Below are positions 2,816 to 27,792 of a DNA stretch of 64,000 nucleotides, piece by piece. The notes under the pieces were generated by a model. It made no database searches and was not told the origin of the DNA. It saw nothing but the letters and a program-made list of their open reading frames with translations. The DNA is taken from NCBI GenBank assembly GCA_014896295.1, contig JADBKR010000004.1, positions 1 through 64,000 on the forward strand. The letters run 5' to 3'. Made by a program: the position numbers and the translations under genes. Within the stretch, counting starts at the first letter, position 1, and every line of letters begins with the position of its first letter. This stretch comes from Limnochordaceae bacterium. GTDB taxonomy: Bacteria; Bacillota; Limnochordia; Limnochordales; Geochordaceae.

Positions 2816-3679
2816 TTGTCGGCAGACGTGCGTCTTCACCGCAGGCCCCGGAGCGCGCAGGGACTGGAGTGGGTGGCCCGGGCAGGCGCAGACCTGCGCC
2901 ATCTCTCCTTCGGCTTGCTGCGCCTGGGGCAGGGCCAGGCACAAGAGGTGGCGCTCGCCGGCGAGGAGGCGGTGCTGGTGCTCGTGGAGGGCAGTCTGGG
3001 CGTGCAGGGCCGGGTGGCCGGGGCGCCCGAGGGCTTCGCCTTCGATCCGGTGGGCCCGAGAGCGGGGGTCTTCCGGCAACGGGCCAGCGCGGTCTACCTG
3101 CCGCCCGGCACCGAGGCGGTCATCCGGGCTCACGCCCCGCTGCTGGCGGCATGGATCACGTCACCCACCGGCCCCGCCGGCCAACCGGGTGCAGCAACGC
3201 CCGCCGCCGGCCGGGCGCCCCGCCCCGTCTGGATCCGCCCGGAGGAGGTTCGCGTGGCCGTGCGGGGGAAGCCGGGCTACCAGCGAGAAGTCCACGATCT
3301 GGTGGACGAGCGGGTACCGGCCCTGCGCCTGCTGGTAGGGGAAACCTTCAACCGGCCCGGCGAATGGTCCAGTTACCCGCCCCACAAGCACGACACGGCC
3401 ATCCCCGGCGTGGAGACGCCCCTGGAAGAGGTGTACTTCTTCCGGGTCGACCCGCCTCAGGGCTTCGGCGTCCAGATGCTCTACAGCCCTTCCCGGGAAA
3501 TCGATCAGGCGTATCGCGTCCTGGACGGCGACGTTACGCTGTTACCCTTCGGGTACCACCCGGTAGCGGCGGCCCCGGGGTATCGCATCTACTACCTGTG
3601 GGCCCTGGCCGGCGCCGAGCGGCACCTGAGCGTCCAGGACGATCCCGACCACGCCTGGGTAACGGCCCGCCCGGGCTGA
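2816..3679 (+). CDS. iolB: 5-deoxy-glucuronate isomerase
   Basis: About 287 residues, KduI/IolB bicupin family. IolB isomerises 5-deoxy-glucuronate to 2-deoxy-5-keto-gluconate in myo-inositol catabolism. The signature metal-binding segment WSSYPPHKHDT is present, with further cupin residues in EEVYFFRVDPPQGFGVQML and a C-terminal GYRIYYLWALAG block. I chose TTG 2816 because GGAGG precedes it by four to five bases; a GTG further in is possible. No other iol genes flank it. The nearest possible partners are the PIG-L gene upstream and a Cgl0159-type barrel at 15067-17108, a family often found in inositol loci. It may therefore serve another deoxy-uronate pathway. Confidence 0.88.
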   Translation: MSADVRLHRRPRSAQGLEWVARAGADLRHLSFGLLRLGQGQAQEVALAGEEAVLVLVEGSLGVQGRVAGAPEGFAFDPVGPRAGVFRQRASAVYLPPGTEAVIRAHAPLLAAWITSPTGPAGQPGAATPAAGRAPRPVWIRPEEVRVAVRGKPGYQREVHDLVDERVPALRLLVGETFNRPGEWSSYPPHKHDTAIPGVETPLEEVYFFRVDPPQGFGVQMLYSPSREIDQAYRVLDGDVTLLPFGYHPVAAAPGYRIYYLWALAGAERHLSVQDDPDHAWVTARPG

Positions 3680-9448: not shown

Positions 9449-10495
9449 ATGAAAGGCCGTCCGACCATCGCCGACGTGGCCAGGGCGGCGGGCGTCTCCA
9501 TCGCGACGGTGTCCGCCGTGCTCAACGGCCGTCCCGGGCGCATCCCGGACGCCACCAGGGGTAGAGTGCTCCGGGCCGCGGAGATGCTGCACTACCGGCC
9601 CAATCCCTTTGCCCGGAGCCTCAAGACCAAACGCAGCTACACGCTGGCCCTCGTCGCCACCGACATCAGCAACCCCTTTTACCCGGGCCTCGCCAAAGGG
9701 ATCGAGCAGGCCGCTCTTTCCCAGGGCTACCAGCTGATCATCTGCAACACGTTCGGCTCGCTCGAGCGCGAGCAGGACCACCTGCTGCGGCTGAGGGACC
9801 GGCAGGTCGACGGGATCATGCTCGCGTCGTCGATCACGCGCCACGACGCCCGTTACCCCGTGGATCTCCTGAAGGACGTGAAGACCGTGCTGCTCAACCG
9901 CACCATCGAGAACGTGAAGGCGCCCGTCATCCGCATGGACAACGTCGGAGCGGGCAAGGACGTGGGGCGCTACCTGGTGTCCCTGGGCTATCGCTCCATC
10001 GCCTACATCGGCGGCCCGGAGGATCGCCCGGCTTCTGCCGACCGTCTCCGTGGACTGCGAGAGGCCCTCGACGAGGCTGGCGTCCCATTGCCCGACGGCT
10101 GGGTGCGGTTTGGGGACTGGGAGCGGGAGGAAGAAGGCTACCGGCATGCCCGCTCCGTCTTCGGAGCGCCGGGCCCCCGTCCTCGGGCGGTCTTTGCCGG
10201 CAACGACATTCTGGCGATGGGGGTCATCCGGGCCGTGAAAGAGATGGGCCTGCGCGTGCCGGAGGACGTGGCGGTCGTAGGGTTCGACGACCGTGACATC
10301 GCGGCCTTCAGCGATCCCCGGCTGACGACGGTGCGCTATCCCTCCGTCGAGATGGGCTACCACGCCGCCCGCATCCTGCTCGACTGGATCGAGCGGCCGG
10401 AGGTGGAGCCTCCCCCGGTGGTCACGCTGGGCTGCCAGCTCATCGTGCGGGGCTCCTGCGGCGGGCAGGCCGTCCAAAGGGGCCCGACGGCATGA
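9449..10495 (+). CDS. LacI-family transcriptional regulator
   Basis: A 348-residue repressor. The N-terminal helix-turn-helix with hinge helix is clear: PTIADVARAAGVSIATVSAV (residues 4-23) followed by NPFARSLKTKRS. The effector domain is of the periplasmic-binding-protein type, with VALVATDISNPFYPGL-like and VFAGNDILAMGVIRAV blocks and the GFDDRD motif near the C-terminus. ATG 9449 lies 10 bases after the permease stop. The gene is embedded in the operon, so it probably controls the operon and the divergent GH31 gene through the palindrome at 6221-6230. The inducer is presumably a product of the imported sugar. Confidence 0.92.
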   Translation: MKGRPTIADVARAAGVSIATVSAVLNGRPGRIPDATRGRVLRAAEMLHYRPNPFARSLKTKRSYTLALVATDISNPFYPGLAKGIEQAALSQGYQLIICNTFGSLEREQDHLLRLRDRQVDGIMLASSITRHDARYPVDLLKDVKTVLLNRTIENVKAPVIRMDNVGAGKDVGRYLVSLGYRSIAYIGGPEDRPASADRLRGLREALDEAGVPLPDGWVRFGDWEREEEGYRHARSVFGAPGPRPRAVFAGNDILAMGVIRAVKEMGLRVPEDVAVVGFDDRDIAAFSDPRLTTVRYPSVEMGYHAARILLDWIERPEVEPPPVVTLGCQLIVRGSCGGQAVQRGPTA

Positions 10496-12756
10496 TCCGG
10501 CCCCTCTCCGAGCCGGGTAGGGCTCCTGCGCTCGAAGGCGACGGCCCGGAGGAGGTAGCGCTCACCCTTTCCAACCGGGCCTTCACGATGGCCCTCGATT
10601 GCTGGGGGCGCGTCCGGAGCCTCAGGCTCGTCAATCACGGCACGGTGATCCGCCCGGGCCGCTTGCGGTGGCACCTCGCCCCGGCCAGCGGGCAAAGCCG
10701 CCGGTCCGCGACCCTCTCGCTCACCGGAAAAGCATGGCGCTTGTGGCCGGGCATGCTCCAGGCCTCGCTCTTGGCGGAGCCGGGAGATGTATCCCTGGAG
10801 GTGGAGGCCGGCGCCGACCGGGAGGCGCCGCTGGTCTGGTTGCGATGGCGCCTGCACGGGCCCCAAGCTTCCGGTGCGGCCCCTGACCGGCAGGATGCCG
10901 CTTGCCCGGCTCTGGTCGTCCGGATCGCTCCCCGTCGGGACGAAGAGCTCGCTCGCGCCGTCGTGCTGCGCATGTTCGGGCCGGCCCGCTACGTGCCGGA
11001 GGCGCTGGAGGCCGTGCGTCGCCACGCCGAGGAGGCTGCGGCGGCCCTGCGGACGCAGGCCGTCGCCGTGCAGGCAGGCGCACGGTCGTGGCTGCTGGAC
11101 GGCGTGTGGTTGCACGCCTCTCTGGAGTGTTCGGGGCTTCAGGTCGCGGATCGAGGTGAGGGCGATGGCGCACGCTGGACGTGTCTCCCCGGCTCGCCGT
11201 CCTCCGGCGGCATGGAGGCCACGCTTGTGCTTTGGGTGGAGAACGCCGTGCCGACGGTCCATCAGGCCCTTCTCGCTCGGGCGCCGACGGCCCCACCGAA
11301 GCCCCTTCCCACTCGACCCGGCCCCGCATCTTTCGAAAGCGGCGACGCCCTGCTCGATACGCTGTTCGCCTTCTCCCTGGACGCGGCCGTCTCCAACTTC
11401 AAGGCCGACCCTCTGGGCGGCTTCGAAGGCCTGACGGCGGGCGTACACTACGAGACCCCGGCCCGGACCTATTTCCGGGACGGCTACTGGACGTCCCAGG
11501 CGCTCTTACCGTTTTACCCGGACCTCGTGCGCGCCCAGGTCGTCGCGCTGGCCGGGGGCGTCCACGACGACGGCTCGTGCCCCAGCGCGGTGCTTTTCCC
11601 CAACCCCGTGCTGGCCGCCGCGCTCGAGGCGGCGCACCGGTTCGTCCCCGGGTTTTCGGCGCTCCACCGGCCGCCTCGCGACTTCTGGTGGGGCCACCAC
11701 GACTCTCCGTCCTTCTTCCTGCTGCTGCTGTACGACTACCTGGCGTGGACGGGCGATGGCTCCGTGTTGTGGGAACCGGTCCCGGGGAGCCCCCGGGAGG
11801 CCGGATCGCGCCACACCGTCCTGGGAAGTGCCGTACGGGCGGCCCGCTACTTGCTCGACGCAGACGTGCATGACGAAGGGCTCGCCCGCAAGCCGTACGA
11901 TACCCTGGACTGGGCCGACAACGTCTTCCGCTCCGGGTGGGTGACGTATGACGAGGCCTTGCGGGCAGCGGCCCTGGGCCGTGCAGGGGCCATCCTGGCA
12001 CGGCTTGCCCGCTGGGGGGATCCCCCTCGGGAGGAGGGCCTCCAGGAGCTCGCGACGAGCTCGGCCCGGCTGGCCCTGGCCCGGCGCCTCGAAGAGGCCC
12101 GCCGCCGCGCCCGGCTCGCCATCAACGAGAAGCTGTGGTTAGCCGACAGGGGATACTATGCCGAGTACGTGGAACCACCCGCCGGCGGTGGCACGGCGCC
12201 CTCGGTGCCCGAGCCGCACCTGGCCATCGACACCCTCACGGTGCTGTTGTGGGACCTGGCCCCCGTGGACCGGGCGCGACGAGTCCTGGATCAAACGGAG
12301 ATCCTCCTCGAGTCCCGTCGTAACCACCGCCAGCCCTACGGTGACTGGGGCGTCATGTGCTGTTTTCCCCCTTATCGGGACCGCCGCCGGCTGACCGGCA
12401 AGACGCGCTTCCCCTACCGCTACCACAACGGGGCGGAGTGGCCGTACTGGAGCGCGGTACTGGCCCTGCTGCGCATGCGGTACGGCACCGGCGACTGGCG
12501 CTATCCGCTCGTGCGATGCTGGGAGGTGGGCCTGGCCAAGGGCCGGGCGGCTCCCGTCGAGTACCACTCGCCACCGTATGCGCCGGGTTCGCCCAACCAG
12601 GCGTGGAGCAGTATGCCGGCTGCCGCCATGGTGCGGGGCGGGTTCGGCATCGAACCCGATCTCGACGGCCGGTTCACGGTGCGGAGGCCCCCCTGGGGCC
12701 CGAGCCGCTTGAAGGGAGTGCACATCCACGGGCAGCGCTACGACTTCGACCTCTGA
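10492..12756 (+). CDS. Six-hairpin (alpha/alpha)6-barrel glycosidase, trehalase/GH63/amylo-glucosidase-like
   Basis: A 754-residue protein without signal peptide. The first 270 residues look like an N-terminal beta-sandwich; the rest is an alpha/alpha toroid as in GH15, GH37, GH63 and debranching enzymes. Supporting stretches are TYFRDGYWTSQALLPFYPDL (residues about 323-342), KPYDTLDWADN (about 466-476), YHNGAEWPYWSAV (about 643-655) and a GSPNQAWSS segment. The RDGYW and HNGAEW elements resemble catalytic-site motifs of this clan, but I cannot place it in one GH family. ATG 10492 overlaps the LacI stop by four bases. It probably processes the sugar imported by this operon. Confidence 0.72.
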   Translation: MIRPLSEPGRAPALEGDGPEEVALTLSNRAFTMALDCWGRVRSLRLVNHGTVIRPGRLRWHLAPASGQSRRSATLSLTGKAWRLWPGMLQASLLAEPGDVSLEVEAGADREAPLVWLRWRLHGPQASGAAPDRQDAACPALVVRIAPRRDEELARAVVLRMFGPARYVPEALEAVRRHAEEAAAALRTQAVAVQAGARSWLLDGVWLHASLECSGLQVADRGEGDGARWTCLPGSPSSGGMEATLVLWVENAVPTVHQALLARAPTAPPKPLPTRPGPASFESGDALLDTLFAFSLDAAVSNFKADPLGGFEGLTAGVHYETPARTYFRDGYWTSQALLPFYPDLVRAQVVALAGGVHDDGSCPSAVLFPNPVLAAALEAAHRFVPGFSALHRPPRDFWWGHHDSPSFFLLLLYDYLAWTGDGSVLWEPVPGSPREAGSRHTVLGSAVRAARYLLDADVHDEGLARKPYDTLDWADNVFRSGWVTYDEALRAAALGRAGAILARLARWGDPPREEGLQELATSSARLALARRLEEARRRARLAINEKLWLADRGYYAEYVEPPAGGGTAPSVPEPHLAIDTLTVLLWDLAPVDRARRVLDQTEILLESRRNHRQPYGDWGVMCCFPPYRDRRRLTGKTRFPYRYHNGAEWPYWSAVLALLRMRYGTGDWRYPLVRCWEVGLAKGRAAPVEYHSPPYAPGSPNQAWSSMPAAAMVRGGFGIEPDLDGRFTVRRPPWGPSRLKGVHIHGQRYDFDL

Positions 12757-15066: not shown

Positions 15067-17108
15067 TTACCGCAACAACCGCTCGACGAGAAAGCCCTCG
15101 TCTGCCCCGCGTGCGGCGGCGATGTGGCGCACCGCCTGGACGGCGCTCGCCTGCCGGTGGATGATGAGGCTGACCCCTTCGGCGACGGCTCGCGGGTCGT
15201 CCCTGCCCGGGTACAGCACGTTGCGCCCGACCATGGCGCCGCGCACGTTGGGACCCTCGGCCATCCCCCGCTCGAAGTCCTCGAGCACGGGCACCGGGCT
15301 GTCGTGGGTCTCGCCGCCCAGCAACAAGATGGGCAGCGTGGTGGCCCTCGCCACCCTCCAGAACTCAGGCACGTAGGGGATCTTGAGCCACACACGGTCG
15401 CTCGCCTCGCCCAGGCCCGCCGCCACCCCGACGGCCCGGATCATCTCATCGGGCTCCAGCACGACCTGGTAGCGGCCCTCGACCCGGCGGACCGGCAGGA
15501 CCTCCACGAAGCCCGGCAGGGCGAAGCGCCGCAGGCCGTTGAGGGCCTGCGCCACGTAGGACATCGTCTGGATCGAGTAGCGCGAGTGCGCCCCGGGGTC
15601 GATCCGCAGCAGCACTTTGCCGGCGTCGAGCCCCCGGGCGTGGATCGCCTCCGGGGTGAAGGCCGTCACGCGGTCTTCCATCTCGTACTCCACGCCCGCC
15701 AGGCCCGAGCGGTTCATCGAGCCGATGACGACGCGCCCGTCCAGGAGCCCCTCGTGCCCGCGCTCCTTCAAGAGGTAGTCGACGAGCAAGAGTTCGTCCA
15801 CGACGTCCGGAGTGGCCATCACGCCGTCCACCATGGGGCTGGTGAGCACCCTCAGCACCCGTCCCAGGTACTCCCACCGATCGCCCAGGGCGACGGGGTC
15901 GCTTCCTGCGGCCGTGACCCGCCGCGCCGGATGATCGGCGGCGAGCACCAGAAGCTTGCCGTCCTCAGGGGCGATGGCCGCGGGTCGCCGCCTCGATCGG
16001 GCCGCCTCTTCGATCCGCTGCGCCTGGCGGACCCGGCTCTCGGCGAGCAGGGCCCAGAGCTGGTCGGTCAGGAAGCGCCGCGTGTGCCAGTAGAACGTGC
16101 CGGGCGTGTAATTGACGTCGATGCGGTGGCGGGCCACCTCGTAGATGGCCCGGGTGCTCTCGAGCACGGCCTCCGACAGCTCTCCGGGCCTCGGCACGAC
16201 CTCGAACCCCACCGGCCCCTGGTACCCGATGTCGACCAGCGCGGCCAGGAAAGCAGCCAGTTCCTCCTCCCTCACGGCGCTCTTCGGGTGATCGAGCCGA
16301 GGGTGGCTGTCGCCGTAAAGGGGTCGGCCGGGTCGAGCACCGCGCTGCCGATGTGCACGTGCACCAGGAAAGGCGCCAGCAGGCGCACGGCGTCGGGGGT
16401 CTCCGGCGAGCCGTCCGCCTGTTGGATGAGGGGCATGTGGGAGAGGTCGTACAAGAGCCCGAAGTTGGTGTGGCCCAGGTGGGCCCGCACCACCCGGGCC
16501 ACGGCCAGGGCCTCGACCGACGGGCCGATGAGCATGTTGCGGAAGCCCGGCTCCGGCCGCCGGTCGAACGACTCCAGCACGATCATGATGGGCGCCCTGC
16601 CCAGCGCCTCGGCGCGCCGGCGCGCATACCCGGCGATTTCCCCCAGCGAGCGCACCAGCGCCTCGGTGGCCTCCTGCCGGCGCTGGTTGCCGGGAGAGGG
16701 CCCGGGGTCCCGCCCGCTCAGCAGGCTCAACGAGACCGCCCCCAGCTCGTACGCCTCGTCCACGCACCGCAGCAGCCGATCGACCGCCTGGCGCCGTGCC
16801 ACCTCGTTGGGGCTCGATATGTCGCTCGGAGGGATCCAGCGCTCCTCGTTGACGAGCTGGACGGGCTGAGCGCCGTAGTATACCTTCTTGCCCCGTTCGG
16901 CGCACAAGGCCCCGATCCGGCGGCGCAGGGCCGGGTCCTTGATCTGGGTCAGCTCGATCCCGCCGATGTACTCCTGGGCCGTCAGATGCTCGACGGTCGA
17001 CAGCATGTAGTGGGCCGGGGCCTCTCCGCGGCTCGTCGAACGGGTGCTCCCCGGCCCCGGGTACGCCATCCAGTGCACGACGGTCACAAGGTTGGACTCC
17101 AAAGCCAC
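15067..17108 (-). CDS. Apparent fusion: sugar-phosphate isomerase/epimerase TIM barrel plus Cgl0159-type (beta/alpha)8 aldolase-like domain, one frame break
   Basis: About 680 residues if one missing base is restored. The N-terminal half (about 1-350) is a xylose-isomerase-like TIM barrel: GGIELTQIKDPALRRRIGAL, MIVLESFDRRPEPGFRNML, LLYDLSHMP, then the HIGSAVLDPADPF / YGDSHPRLDHPKS metal-site region, split by a one-base deletion near 16317-16321. The C-terminal half (about 370-680) matches the Cgl0159 family: LLVLAADHPARR, VDGVMATPDVVDELLL, VVIGSMNRSGL, TLPILLLGGETHDSP. No stop, ATG, TTG or well-placed GTG separates the halves. GTG 17108 follows GGGGGTGA. It lies 14 bp after the FGGY kinase gene, suggesting a ketose-phosphate pathway in which the kinase product is epimerised and cleaved. 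The reaction is not known. Confidence 0.78.
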
Positions 17109-17122
17109 CGGTCTCACCCCCG

Positions 17123-18705
17123 CTACGGCTCCCCCGTCAGCCCTGCTCCGCGATCCCACAATTCGGAGTAAACCGGCATCATGACCTGCACGAGCCGCTC
17201 GTAGCGCTCCGCAAGCGAACGGTAAGCGGCGGCCAGCGACGGATCCACCGCCACCTCCCGCTCCGGCGGGTTGAACGCCCGCGCCGCCTCCAGGGGGTCG
17301 CGCCACAGCCCGACGCCCCACCCGGCCAGGACCATGGCCCCGAGGGACGCGGCCCGGCCGAGCCGCGGCACGATCACGGGCCGCTCGACAGCGGCCGCCT
17401 TGATCTGCAGCCACAACGGGCTGCGGGCCCCGCCTCCCATGGCCACGATGCGGCTCACGGCCAATGCCGGCGCTCTCCGAGCACCTGCCGGCACGCCCTC
17501 AGCTCCAGCGCGACGCTCTCCATGGCGGCCCGGACCAGGTGAGCGCGGGTGTGCTCGAGGGTGAGCCCGATGGCGGCTCCCCTCGCCTGAGGTTGCCAGC
17601 GCGGCGCACGAGCCCCCATGAAGTACGGGAGCAGGAAGAGACCGTCGGCTCCGGGCGGGACCTCTCCGGCCTCCTCGCTCATCGCGTCGTAAACGTCCTT
17701 CCCTTCCCGCTCCAGCCTCCGGCGCTCCTCCCCGAACGCGAGCTCCCGCAGCCACCGCAGGATGGCGCCCGTGGCGTTGAGCCCCTGCTCGACCAGCCAG
17801 TGGCCGGGCAGCACGTGCACCGTGTACAGCAGGCCGGGGACGCGCGCCCCCCGGCCTACCGCCTCTGGCACCACCGTCGACACGTTGGACGTCGTGCCGG
17901 TGGACTCCATCGCCTCCCCCGGCCCGAGCGCCACGCCCAGGGCCTCCAGGCACCGGTCGCCGCCCCCCGTCACCACGGGCACGCCGGCCCGCAGCCCCAG
18001 CGCCTGGGCAGCCTGCGGGGTCAGGCTCCCGGCTCGCTCGTGAGAGGCCACCACGGGGGGAAACCGCCCGGGGTCGATGCCGGCCTCGTCGAACGCAGCC
18101 TCCCACCACCGCCCCGCCAGGGAGTCCCACATCATGGTGCGCGAGGCGAGCGACGGGTCCGTGACGAACCGGCCGGTCAGCCGGTGGACGACCAGGTCCC
18201 TCGGTTGGAGCAGGTAGGCGGCGCGGCGCAAGAGCTCTGGCTCGTGCTCCCGCATCCACAGGAGCTTGGCCAGCGTGAAGGTCGCATCCGGCACCATGCC
18301 CGTGTGCCGGTGAATCCTTTGCGCGCCGAGCCTCCGGGCCAGCGCCTGGACCTGGGCCGCTCCCCGCCTGTCCATCCACGAGATCGCCCTGGCCAGGGGC
18401 CGGCCGTCGAAGTCGACGAGGGCGACCGTCTCCCGCTGGGAACTGAGCCCGATGGCCGCCACGTCCGGCGGCACCTCGCCCCGGTACGCCCCCGCTCGCT
18501 CCATGTGCGCGAGCGCGCGGCGCACCGCAGCTATGCACGCCTGCCACCAGTCCTCGGGGTCCTGCTCGGCCCACAGGGGCCGGGGATGGTAAGTGGGGTA
18601 CTCTTGCTCCCCCTGGCCCACCGGCCGCCCCGTGGCGTCGAACATCACCGCCTTGCACGCGGTGGTGCCGACGTCGATGGTCAAGATGAACGGGCCGGCG
18701 CTCAT
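17123..18705 (-). CDS. FGGY-family carbohydrate kinase (xylulokinase-like), one frame break
   Basis: About 527 residues. The ATPase fold begins FILTIDVGTTACKAVMFD; GLSSQRETVALVD and AISWMDRRGAAQ follow, with TGGGDRCLEALG holding the likely catalytic Asp and STGTTSNVS in the phosphate region. The C-terminal SRIVAMGGGARSPLWLQ adenosine motif is in another frame, joined by a one-base shift near 17462-17470. ATG 18705 follows GGAGGAGG. Members phosphorylate ketoses or polyols; overall order and length fit xylulokinase, but substrate cannot be fixed. It is the first gene of a two-gene minus-strand operon with the TIM-barrel fusion. Confidence 0.87.
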
Positions 18706-20828: not shown

Positions 20829-20895
20829 CTTGAGTCTGCTCGAAAGTCCCACTCAAGTGCGTGGTGTTGCGCGCTTTGCGTGAACGTGATAAGAT
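20829..20895 (+). promoter_or_regulatory. Promoter and inverted repeat upstream of the DeoR gene
   Basis: CTTGAGT at 20829-20835 and ACTCAAG at 20851-20857 form a perfect 7-bp inverted repeat with a 15-base spacer, a plausible operator. Downstream, TTGCGC (20867-20872), 17 bases, then TAAGAT (20890-20895) resemble a sigma-70 type promoter. The predicted transcript would start about 25 bases before the DeoR ATG at 20927. Autoregulation is inference. Confidence 0.45.
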
Positions 20896-20926
20896 TTGCG
20901 GGGGTCACCCGGGCAGGTACGACGCC

Positions 20927-21682
20927 ATGATCAAACCCGAACGCCACGACCGCATCTTGAGCGAGATCGCCCGGCGCGGCGCGGCCAGTGTCGCGGAGCT
21001 GGCCGCGTTGCTGGGAGTTTCGGAGGCGACCATCCGTCGGGACCTCCAGGAGCTGGGAGAGAGCGGGCTCTTGCGCCGGACCCACGGCGGAGCCTCCCTC
21101 GCCGACCAGTCCGACGAGCTTCCCTACCACTTCAAGGTCACCGCCTTCTTGCCCGAGAAGCGGCGGATCGGGGCGGTGGCGGCTTCCATGGTGCAGGACG
21201 GCCAGGTCGTGGGTTGCACCGGCGGCACCACGGTGGCGCAGTTCGTACGGGCGCTGCGGGGCCGCAAGGTCACCGTCGTGACGAGTGCCGTCAACGTAGC
21301 GGCAGACCTGGCCAGTTCTCCCGAGACCGAGGTCTTCGTGACCGGAGGGGCGTTGCGAGGCCGATCGTTCGAGATGGTCGGGCACACGGCCGAGCGGGCC
21401 ATCCGGGAGTTTCGTTTGGACGTGGCCGTCGTTGGCGTGGACGGCCTGTCCGTTGAGTACGGCCTCACCACGTACAATCCCGCCGAGGCCCACGTCAACC
21501 GCACGTTCATCGAGCAAGCCAAAGAGGTGTGGGTGGTCGCCGATCACTCCAAACTCGGCAAGGTGACCCCCGCCATCATCGCGCCGGTGGAGCGCATGCA
21601 CCGCCTCGTCACCGACTCCAGCGCCCCCCACGACTTCCTGGCGAGGCTCCAGGAGCTCGGGATCCAGACGATCACGGCCTGA
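20927..21682 (+). CDS. DeoR-family transcriptional regulator
   Basis: A 251-residue regulator. The N-terminal DeoR winged helix is clear: ERHDRILSEIARRGAASVAE, then GVSEATIRRDLQELGESGLL (residues about 27-46) and RRTHGGA. The C-terminal sensor domain is of the DeoRC type that binds phosphorylated sugars, with GTTVAQFV-like, TSAVNVAADLAS and VADHSKLGKV blocks. ATG 20927 is chosen because it begins exactly at the usual family N-terminus (MIKPERHDRI). It stands alone with its own promoter, downstream of the transglycosylase; its targets may be the nearby FGGY kinase operon. That link is inference. Confidence 0.9.
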   Translation: MIKPERHDRILSEIARRGAASVAELAALLGVSEATIRRDLQELGESGLLRRTHGGASLADQSDELPYHFKVTAFLPEKRRIGAVAASMVQDGQVVGCTGGTTVAQFVRALRGRKVTVVTSAVNVAADLASSPETEVFVTGGALRGRSFEMVGHTAERAIREFRLDVAVVGVDGLSVEYGLTTYNPAEAHVNRTFIEQAKEVWVVADHSKLGKVTPAIIAPVERMHRLVTDSSAPHDFLARLQELGIQTITA

Positions 21683-22769: not shown

Positions 22770-23717
22770 CCCGTTACGTGCTGCGCCGGCTGGCCATCAT
22801 GGTGCCGGTGCTGATGGGCATCACCGTTGCTCAACTATGCCATCGTCAACCTGGCTCCCGGCGATGCCGTGGACCTGCTGATCAACCCGTCGATGAGCGA
22901 GGCCGACCGGGCGGCGCGCCGCCAGGCCCTGGGCCTGGACCAGCCCTTTCTCGTGCGTTACGTGCGGTGGGCAGGCGAGACGCTGCACGGCAACCTCGGC
23001 TACTCCTATACCACCTCGGAGCCCGTGGCCCGGCGGATCGCCGAGCGCGTGGGCCCCAGTTTGCTCCTCATGGGCACCAGCTACCTCGTCGCCTACGCGG
23101 CGGCGTTGCCGCTCGGCGTGCTCTCGGCCGTCCATCCCTACACCTGGGTGGACTACCTCTCGGGCTTCGCTGGCCTGCTGGGCGTCTCGTTGCCGACGTT
23201 CTTCCTGTCGCTCGTGTCGATCTACGGGTTCGCCTTGAAACTCGGGTGGTTGCCCACTGGGGGCATGACGACGCTCGGCGGCCCCTTCGATCTCCTGGAC
23301 CTTCTCCGGCACCTCGCCTTGCCGGCCCTGGTGCTGGCGTTGTCCAACGTGGGCCTGGTGCTGAGGCTGGTGCGATCGAGCACCCTGGAGGTGCTGCGGC
23401 AGGATTACGTTCGCACGGCTCGCGCCAAAGGCCTCCCGCAAGGCGCCGTCATCTTCCGGCACGCGTTGAAAAACAGCCTGATCCCCGTCGTGACCATGGC
23501 CGGGTTGCAGCTCCCGGCCCTCATCGGCGGAGCAGTCGTCACCGAGCAGGTCTTCCAGTGGCCGGGGATGGGATCTCTGTCGATCCAGGCCATCCTGCAG
23601 CGGGACTACCCCACCCTGATGGCCCTCAACCTTCTGGCCGCGGTCGCCGTGCTCGCCGGTGGCCTCCTGGCCGACGTGCTGTACGCCGCCATCGATCCCC
23701 GCATTCGGTACGAGTAG
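22766..23717 (+). CDS. Peptide ABC transporter permease (DppB-like), one frame break
   Basis: About 316 residues. GTG 22766 overlaps the IclR stop. The first 20 residues (TRYVLRRLAIMVPVLMGIT) are in one frame and the rest (LLNYAIVNLAPGDAVDLL onward) in the next, with one extra base near 22826. The remainder is a normal DppB: LGLDQPFLVRYVRW, membrane segments, and the EAA-like loop YVRTARAKGLPQGAVIFRHA with the ending TEQVFQWPGMGSLSIQAIL. It pairs with the DppC-like protein encoded next. No ATP-binding subunits follow, unlike most dpp/opp operons. Confidence 0.9.
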
Positions 23718-26352: not shown

Positions 26353-27792
26353 GTGAACGTCCCCGCATCCTCTACCCCTTCGAGCGGAGTGGAGAAGGTG
26401 GTCCAGCACCTGCGCGCTCGATTCGACGAGGACCTCGAGCAGGTGCGGGCCTTCCTGCGCACGCCCAGCGTCAGCTACACGGGGCAAGGCATCCAGGAGA
26501 CGGCCCGACAGGTCGCCGGATTCATCCGCAGAGCTCGGCGGGACGGCGAGCGTGGTGCCGACCGCGGGCCATCCCATCGTCTTCGGGCGCCTGGACCAGC
26601 AAGCCGCGCACACCGTCCTGGTCTACGGCATGTACGACGTCATGCCCGCGGACGAGCCCAACTGGTCGAGCGATCCGTGGGCGGCCGAGATTCGCGAACT
26701 GCCGGGCCTGGGCCTCTCCGTCGTCGCCCGCGGCGCGGTCAACACCAAGGGGCCGCTGGCGGCGTTCTTCCGGGCCGTGGAGGCGTACCGGCACGTGGCC
26801 GGCCGCCTGCCCGTCAACCTCCTGTTCGCCATCGAAGGGGAGGAGGAGATGGGCAGTCGCCACTTCCTGCCGTTCGTCGAAAGCCATCGCGAGGAGCTGC
26901 GGGCCGCCGACGCCGTGCTCTTCCCGTTTTTCAGCCAGGACGAGGCGGGCGTGCCCTCCCTCACGCTGGGTACCAAAGGCATCCTCTACTTCGAACTCGA
27001 ATGCCGGGGCGGCGATTGGGGCGGTCCGGCCGAACGAGGGATCCACGGCTCCAACAACGCCTGGGTGGCCAATCCGGTGTGGAGACTGGTGCAGGCGCTG
27101 GCGACGCTGGTCGACGAGGAAGAAAACCCGAAGGTGGAGGGGTTCTTCGACGGGGTCACCCCCTCGATCCGGCCGAGCGGGAGATCCTGCGCCGTCAGGT
27201 CGAGAGCGGGCTGATGGACGAGCGGCCGTTCATGCAGTTCGAGCACGTGCGGAGATTCAAGGGGGGCTTGCGGGGCGTGCCGCTGTGGGAGCGGCTGTTC
27301 GGCCAGCCCCAGTTCAACATCGACGGGCTCGTGGGCGGCTACGTCGAGGAAGGCACCAAGACGCTGCTGCCCCACCGGGCGCTGGCCAAGCTCGACGTCC
27401 GCACCGTGCCCCGCATGGATCCCGACGCGGTGGCGGCGGCCATTCGCCGGCACCTCGATACGCACGGTTACGCCGACATCGAGATGCGGGTGCTCAACAA
27501 CTATCCCTGGTCGAAGGTGCGCCTCGACGAGCCGGCCGTGCAAGCCATGGTCGAGACGTACCAGACCATGGGCCGCACGCCCCAGATATGGCCGCTCAAT
27601 CCGGGTTCGGCCCCTTACTACGTCTTCGAGCGGGTGCTCGGGATCCCGTACGTAACCGGCGGGTTGGGACACGGAGGCCGGCAGCATTCGACCGACGAGT
27701 ACTGCACGGTCCAGGGGATTCTCGACTTCGAGATTTCCATGGTGCGCTGGATGGATGCTTTCTCCCGCCGCATGGACGAAAGGAAGCGATGA
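26353..27792 (+). CDS. M20-family metallopeptidase, two compensating frame breaks
   Basis: About 479 residues with frames corrected. M20 enzymes are dizinc aminoacylases, dipeptidases or carboxypeptidases. The first 60 residues (FDEDLEQVRAFLRTPSVSY) are in the start frame. An extra base near 26530 shifts to the frame holding VLVYGMYDVMPADEPNWSSD, VARGAVNTKGPLAAF and FAIEGEEEMGS, the metal and catalytic Glu motifs. A missing C in the run at 27159-27163 restores the first frame for LDPAEREILRRQ and GGLGHGGRQHSTDEY, the last metal histidine. GTG 26353 follows GGAGG. All catalytic motifs remain, so this is probably a working gene. Likely acts on substrates brought in by the Dpp system. Confidence 0.87.
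   Translation: MNVPASSTPSSGVEKVVQHLRARFDEDLEQVRAFLRTPSVSYTGQGIQETARQVAGFIRRARRDGERGADRGPSHRLRAPGPASRAHRPGLRHVRRHARGRAQLVERSVGGRDSRTAGPGPLRRRPRRGQHQGAAGGVLPGRGGVPARGRPPARQPPVRHRRGGGDGQSPLPAVRRKPSRGAAGRRRRALPVFQPGRGGRALPHAGYQRHPLLRTRMPGRRLGRSGRTRDPRLQQRLGGQSGVETGAGAGDAGRRGRKPEGGGVLRRGHPLDPAEREILRRQVESGLMDERPFMQFEHVRRFKGGLRGVPLWERLFGQPQFNIDGLVGGYVEEGTKTLLPHRALAKLDVRTVPRMDPDAVAAAIRRHLDTHGYADIEMRVLNNYPWSKVRLDEPAVQAMVETYQTMGRTPQIWPLNPGSAPYYVFERVLGIPYVTGGLGHGGRQHSTDEYCTVQGILDFEISMVRWMDAFSRRMDERKR

Follow-up and report, generated by a model that had tools for sequence, protein, structure and literature searches.

Is a protein that joins a metal-dependent TIM-barrel isomerase to a Cgl0159-type barrel really encoded by a minus-strand gene of a Limnochordaceae bacterium, and which route would such a protein serve? 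The gene is located in a 64,000-nucleotide stretch of contig JADBKR010000004.1 (the window below). The structure of Cgl0159 has been solved, but our literature search found no paper assigning its function and none mentioning Cgl0159. A search for an isomerase–Cgl0159 fusion returned nothing relevant, and matches to cg0198 were nearly all methylation probes.

Results

The fusion gene and its reading frame

A first-pass annotation had described, after correction of one base near 16318, a single frame of about 680 residues joining two barrels, with neither a stop nor a usable start between them. In the assembled minus strand, residues 1–262 of the isomerase lie in one frame (17108 to about 16323), and its last ~70 residues together with the Cgl0159 barrel lie in a second frame, offset by one base (about 16323 to 15067). 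A Shine-Dalgarno-like sequence, GGGGGTGA, is located just 5′ of the start codon of the fusion (GTG 17108; Table 1). With the missing base restored, the gene comprises about 681 codons including the stop. Its product matched PF01261 (AP_endonuc_2) with 53 bits (cut-off 31, E 5e-14) and PF22649 (Cgl0159) with 243.9 bits (cut-off 27, E 2e-72) over profile positions 1–245 of 251. The latter score exceeds the curated Pfam cut-off across the domain and places the C-terminal barrel among the Cgl0159-like proteins.

Table 1. Features of the fusion locus in the window
Feature	Position	Strand	Remarks
Isomerase–Cgl0159 fusion gene	15067..17108	−	GTG start 17108; ~680 residues counting one missing base
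N-terminal metal-dependent TIM-barrel isomerase/epimerase domain, PF01261	16123..17108	−	
C-terminal Cgl0159 barrel, PF22649, putative DhnA-like class I aldolase	15067..16122	−	
G run (C run on the coding strand)	16320..16323	−	one base short relative to same-species genome; frame broken in assembly
FGGY carbohydrate kinase	17123..18705	−	directly upstream, 14 bases before fusion; start approximate
IolB-like (KduI/IolB family) isomerase	2879..3661	+	clade linked to Cgl0159 in relatives
DeoR-family regulator	20861..21682	+	kind adjoining fusion in several relatives

Alignment with five intact homologues located the missing base to 16320; up to the extreme 3′ end, no other gap departed from a multiple of three. 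G255, a complete genome from this species (identity 97.9% across 30.6 kb), reads GGGGG where the window reads GGGG at 16320–16323, and its fusion frame is intact. The correction proposed by the annotation is thus borne out. Over window positions 1–30633 there are 18 gaps relative to G255, nearly all of one base. Some of them break the frame of the FGGY kinase; others fall in an M20-type peptidase (near 26529 and 27159), and a further gap lies near 22826 in an ABC permease region. Genes of the window that appear split should therefore not be taken as pseudogenes unless the reads have been checked. The gap at 16320 is present in the assembled sequence and could mean that the gene carries a genuine frameshift in this organism, being a pseudogene or encoding two separate proteins. 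We regard this as very improbable: the site is a homopolymer, the same species carries an intact copy and the surrounding 30 kb, kinase included, contains many similar one-base gaps. Since the same-species copy is intact and such gaps abound, a sequencing error is the simplest cause of the frame break, and the most likely one. Programmed frameshifting was rejected, since the shift is absent from all relatives and affects a homopolymer.

The junction is free of stops in the window. The start-like codons closest to it are GTGs within the last isomerase helices, the nearest at 16137, and a search for Shine-Dalgarno-like bases 5′ of these GTGs found none. The last isomerase helix is joined almost directly, nearly without linker, to the N-terminal segment of the Cgl0159 barrel. 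Synthesis of two proteins from an internal start was therefore rejected: no start has a ribosome site, and the frames of the relatives are continuous. The earlier description of one frame with two barrels agrees with all of this. We are almost certain that the fusion is real. The architecture is that of one polypeptide, which would be bifunctional. A structure model of the whole protein, built on an alignment of four sequences, had a mean pLDDT of 49 and was too poor for use.

Conservation and origin of the fusion

The annotation had asked whether homologues are one protein or two. Both barrels were found in one uninterrupted frame in 20 other Bacillota genomes of nine families (17 relatives of a first survey, G255, G150 and the separate record L002). 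These frames span 676–765 codons from stop to stop, far beyond chance. Consistently separate homologues, the pattern named by the annotation as speaking against a fusion, were not seen. Separate proteins are the exception: in G181 a 306-residue isomerase of the same subfamily is encoded 35 bp before Cgl0159, and other genomes carry Cgl0159 alone. Unfused Cgl0159 occurs in 12 genomes of our tree. In this tree the 20 fused sequences lie on one side of a branch (support 92/94), as do the 16 sampled fused sequences in the isomerase tree (support 86/100). Both trees are consistent with a single origin of this fusion.

A second type of fusion was found in one genome only, G236 (L087:3862–5862), where a 666-residue protein combines Cgl0159 with an isomerase of a different subfamily and is followed by an ADP-PFK/GK-like kinase. 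This fusion arose independently. Together with the adjacent pair of G181, it suggests that the two domains share a pathway.

The two barrels

Eight residues of the N-terminal barrel (E176, D218, H221, H247, H249, D264, H266 and E300; L002 numbering) do not vary among 17 members, both fused and unfused. The barrel scores above the PF01261 cut-off and has the Glu, Asp, His, Glu metal-ligand set, and therefore belongs to the xylose isomerase-like TIM barrels. For all 17 isomerases scanned the nearest curated family was IolO, and for 14 of the 17 the second nearest was hydroxypyruvate isomerase. Both scored far below the equivalog cut-offs: 22–37 bits against 300 for IolO across the fused type together with its unfused relatives (fused sequences shown, 22–33), and 16–29 bits against 353 for hydroxypyruvate isomerase, TIGR03234 (fused sequences shown, 16–18). 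A profile search of PDB returned D-tagatose 3-epimerase, xylose isomerase and TM0416. A Foldseek search with a moderate model of the domain (pLDDT 66, pTM 0.71; used for fold class only) agreed with it; in both searches D-tagatose 3-epimerases and xylose isomerases led the matches.

For the C-terminal barrel, the PDB profile search returned 3fok and the DhnA/archaeal FBP aldolases 2qjg and 1w8s. The lysines of the motifs LDxxK and WLKxP are invariant in nine Cgl0159 members; a distant member, G314, has lost the WLKxP lysine. A conserved lysine combined with DhnA/FBP aldolase similarity is what is expected in sequence of a class I Schiff-base, DhnA-like aldolase. The Cgl0159 barrel is probably a Schiff-base aldolase that splits phosphorylated keto-hexonates.

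Gene neighbourhoods

The FGGY kinase that the annotation had placed upstream lies directly 5′ of the fusion on the same strand, ending at 17123. FGGY kinases are found at the fusion or Cgl0159 locus of the window, G255, G014, G019, G109 and G150. PPi-PFK-like kinases are located at the Cgl0159 locus of G071, G118, G156, G190, G270, G289 and G442, ADP-PFK/GK-like kinases at that of G004 and G236 (in G015 at about 3 kb), and PfkB-type IolC beside Cgl0159 on four actinobacterial plasmids. The sugar kinase adjacent to Cgl0159 is thus drawn from four families (PfkB, PPi-PFK-like, ADP-PFK-like and FGGY). In the window 12 kb separate the IolB-like gene from the fusion; the two adjoin each other in G001, G014 and G019, and an IolB-like gene lies beside unfused Cgl0159 in G071, G004 and G270. 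The annotation had suggested a set of kinase, isomerase and aldolase, and the recurrence of Cgl0159 with a kinase and either an IolB-like or a TIM-barrel isomerase speaks for it. We also noted, in the sugar-use region of the window, a 754-residue protein without a Pfam match at E 1e-5 (10492–12756, plus strand).

A glyoxylate/hydroxypyruvate-reductase-like gene lies near the fusion in five genomes (G014, G019, G015, G109 and G150); none is found near the fusion in the window's own locus. The same kind of gene accompanies unfused members of the isomerase subfamily at six of eight loci (G004, G005, G010, G029, G101 and G142). These loci are L097, L098 and L100–L103, and two of them also carry a DeoR regulator and an FGGY kinase. 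DeoR regulators recur near the fusion as well as near the unfused isomerase. A class I aminotransferase gene directly precedes the fusion in 11 genomes (L035–L039, L042–L045, L048 and L049), which represent at least two classes. The fusion has no adjacent kinase there, and its surroundings are often a housekeeping region that includes ComB-like and groES/groEL genes. One guess is that this aminotransferase forms serine from hydroxypyruvate.

In G289 (L094:3362–9752) the gene order is IolM, Zn dehydrogenase, IolN, IolO-like epimerase, Cgl0159 and PPi-PFK-like kinase. IolM and IolN scored above the curated cut-offs, and the IolO-like gene reached 270 of 300 bits. By position and sequence, G118, G156 and G190 have similar operons (L053, L088 and L091). 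An operon of this type is possibly an inositol route ending in aldol cleavage.

Proposed pathway and its alternatives

Thermotoga maritima uses IolM, IolN and IolO in its inositol route, which gives non-deoxy keto-hexonates. The original description of that route is cited in PMC3750489. In G289, where their counterparts precede Cgl0159 and a kinase, the gene order points to a non-deoxy keto-hexonate as substrate, from which, by chemical inference, kinase and aldolase would yield DHAP and tartronate semialdehyde. A partner barrel resembling hydroxypyruvate isomerase and a recurrent hydroxypyruvate-type reductase would both fit this product; Hyi, the hydroxypyruvate isomerase, works with reductases in glyoxylate metabolism. 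Our best explanation, put forward tentatively, is a bifunctional isomerase–aldolase that operates with the FGGY kinase in a keto-hexonate or ketohexuronate route, its isomerase acting after cleavage. An IolB-like or TIM-barrel enzyme would form a keto sugar acid, the kinase would phosphorylate the CH2OH adjoining the ketone, and the Cgl0159 barrel would cleave the product to DHAP and tartronate semialdehyde. The fused isomerase barrel would then convert the semialdehyde to hydroxypyruvate, for use by the linked reductase or, in other genomes, the aminotransferase. Joining the two barrels would stop the reactive aldehyde from diffusing off. The set of kinase, isomerase and aldolase is supported by context; its substrates and the place of the isomerase step are inferred. 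That the isomerase barrel works on the cleavage product is, in our judgement, slightly less likely than not. Against the best explanation, the 11 aminotransferase-linked fusions have no adjacent kinase, and the window locus has no nearby reductase.

The order of the isomerase step is the main point on which a rival reading differs. With the same fusion and aldolase, the isomerase barrel could act ahead of cleavage on a free or phosphorylated sugar acid, either as an epimerase like IolO or as an aldose–ketose isomerase, in a scheme comparable to FucI–FucK–FucA. IolO is the nearest curated family throughout, and the slight lead of its scores over those of hydroxypyruvate isomerase tells against a post-cleavage isomerase, both being far below cut-off. 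The leading epimerase and xylose isomerase matches, and the clear IolO-like gene before Cgl0159 in G289 and its kin, favor the earlier step too. However, IolO scores of 22–37 bits are remote from 300, and the 2-hydroxyacid dehydrogenase recurring beside the unfused isomerase better suits a 2-keto-acid product. We consider action before cleavage a genuine possibility, if a somewhat doubtful one.

The annotation had noted that Cgl0159-type proteins are often seen in inositol clusters and that an iolB lies nearby; a link to ordinary inositol catabolism was not supported. A classical inositol catabolic cluster has at least three of iolB, iolC, iolD and iolE in one cluster (PMC9430895). Only iolB exceeded its cut-off in the window's genome when iolB, iolC and iolD were searched, so that even with an iolE at most two of the four could be present. 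In addition, the fusion-linked IolB and the IolB found in inositol operons fall in separate clades (support 100/98). G019 carries both kinds: IolB, IolC and IolD are above cut-off on C36 and C151, and a second IolB lies beside the fusion on C127. The fusion-linked IolB is therefore a paralogue. With iolC and iolD missing and the linked IolB in its own clade, classical inositol catabolism is unlikely. A remnant of it could still be imagined, in which DKG would come from IolB, the FGGY kinase would stand in for IolC, and the Cgl0159 barrel would act as an aldolase that splits DKGP into DHAP and malonate semialdehyde; actinobacterial iol operons do place Cgl0159 between iolC and iolA/iolB, and G004, G071 and G270 have sets of IolB, kinase and Cgl0159. 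Besides the missing genes and the separate clade, malonate semialdehyde would, on chemical grounds, leave the fused isomerase with no substrate, and we hold such a remnant to be quite improbable.

Returning to the route through tartronate semialdehyde, UxaC was absent from all 21 genomes with Cgl0159 and UxuA from 20 of the 21, with positive controls. Their absence would allow for a different uronate route in these genomes but is no proof of uronate use. Two genes near the fusion in G001 were discarded as hints of uronate use: a pectate-lyase-like gene matched only part of its profile, and a GH4 gene scored best as alpha-galactosidase, below cut-off. A literature search for a tartronate-semialdehyde split of hexuronates gave nothing relevant. 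A broader proposal, speculative and in our view rather unlikely, is a previously undescribed phosphorylating ketohexuronate or keto-gluconate route (isomerase, kinase from at least four families, cleavage by Cgl0159 to DHAP and tartronate semialdehyde, conversion of the semialdehyde by the fused isomerase barrel to hydroxypyruvate for a reductase or aminotransferase) that would replace UxaC/UxuA in these Bacillota.

Discussion

Cgl0159 is linked to an isomerase–kinase–aldolase route by the fusion itself, by the independent recurrence of such a fusion with a different isomerase, and by the varying family of the neighbouring kinase. Taken together, these observations also leave a short list of substrates, against which the function of Cgl0159 can be tested directly. 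Should the proposed cleavage be correct, it would constitute an additional way of using uronic acids or inositol with formation of DHAP.

The closest known relative of the C-terminal barrel is Cgl0159 of Corynebacterium glutamicum (PF22649, PDB 3fok), which belongs to the same family (phmmer E 3e-53) and keeps both candidate catalytic lysines. In the iol operons of actinobacteria it neighbours a sugar kinase, but it is a standalone protein that shares about 40% identity with the fused barrel, in an operon with iolC, iolB and iolD. The DhnA/archaeal class I FBP aldolases (1w8s, 2qjg) are distant relatives that have the GG...vGRN phosphate-site region in common with the C-terminal barrel; they are standalone, act on other substrates and align with only part of the barrel. 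IolO, the 5-keto-L-gluconate epimerase (TM0416, PDB 2zvr), is of the same superfamily as the N-terminal barrel, but the latter is in another subfamily, far under the IolO family cut-off. Hyi is the second nearest curated family, yet the fused barrels are far under its cut-off as well.
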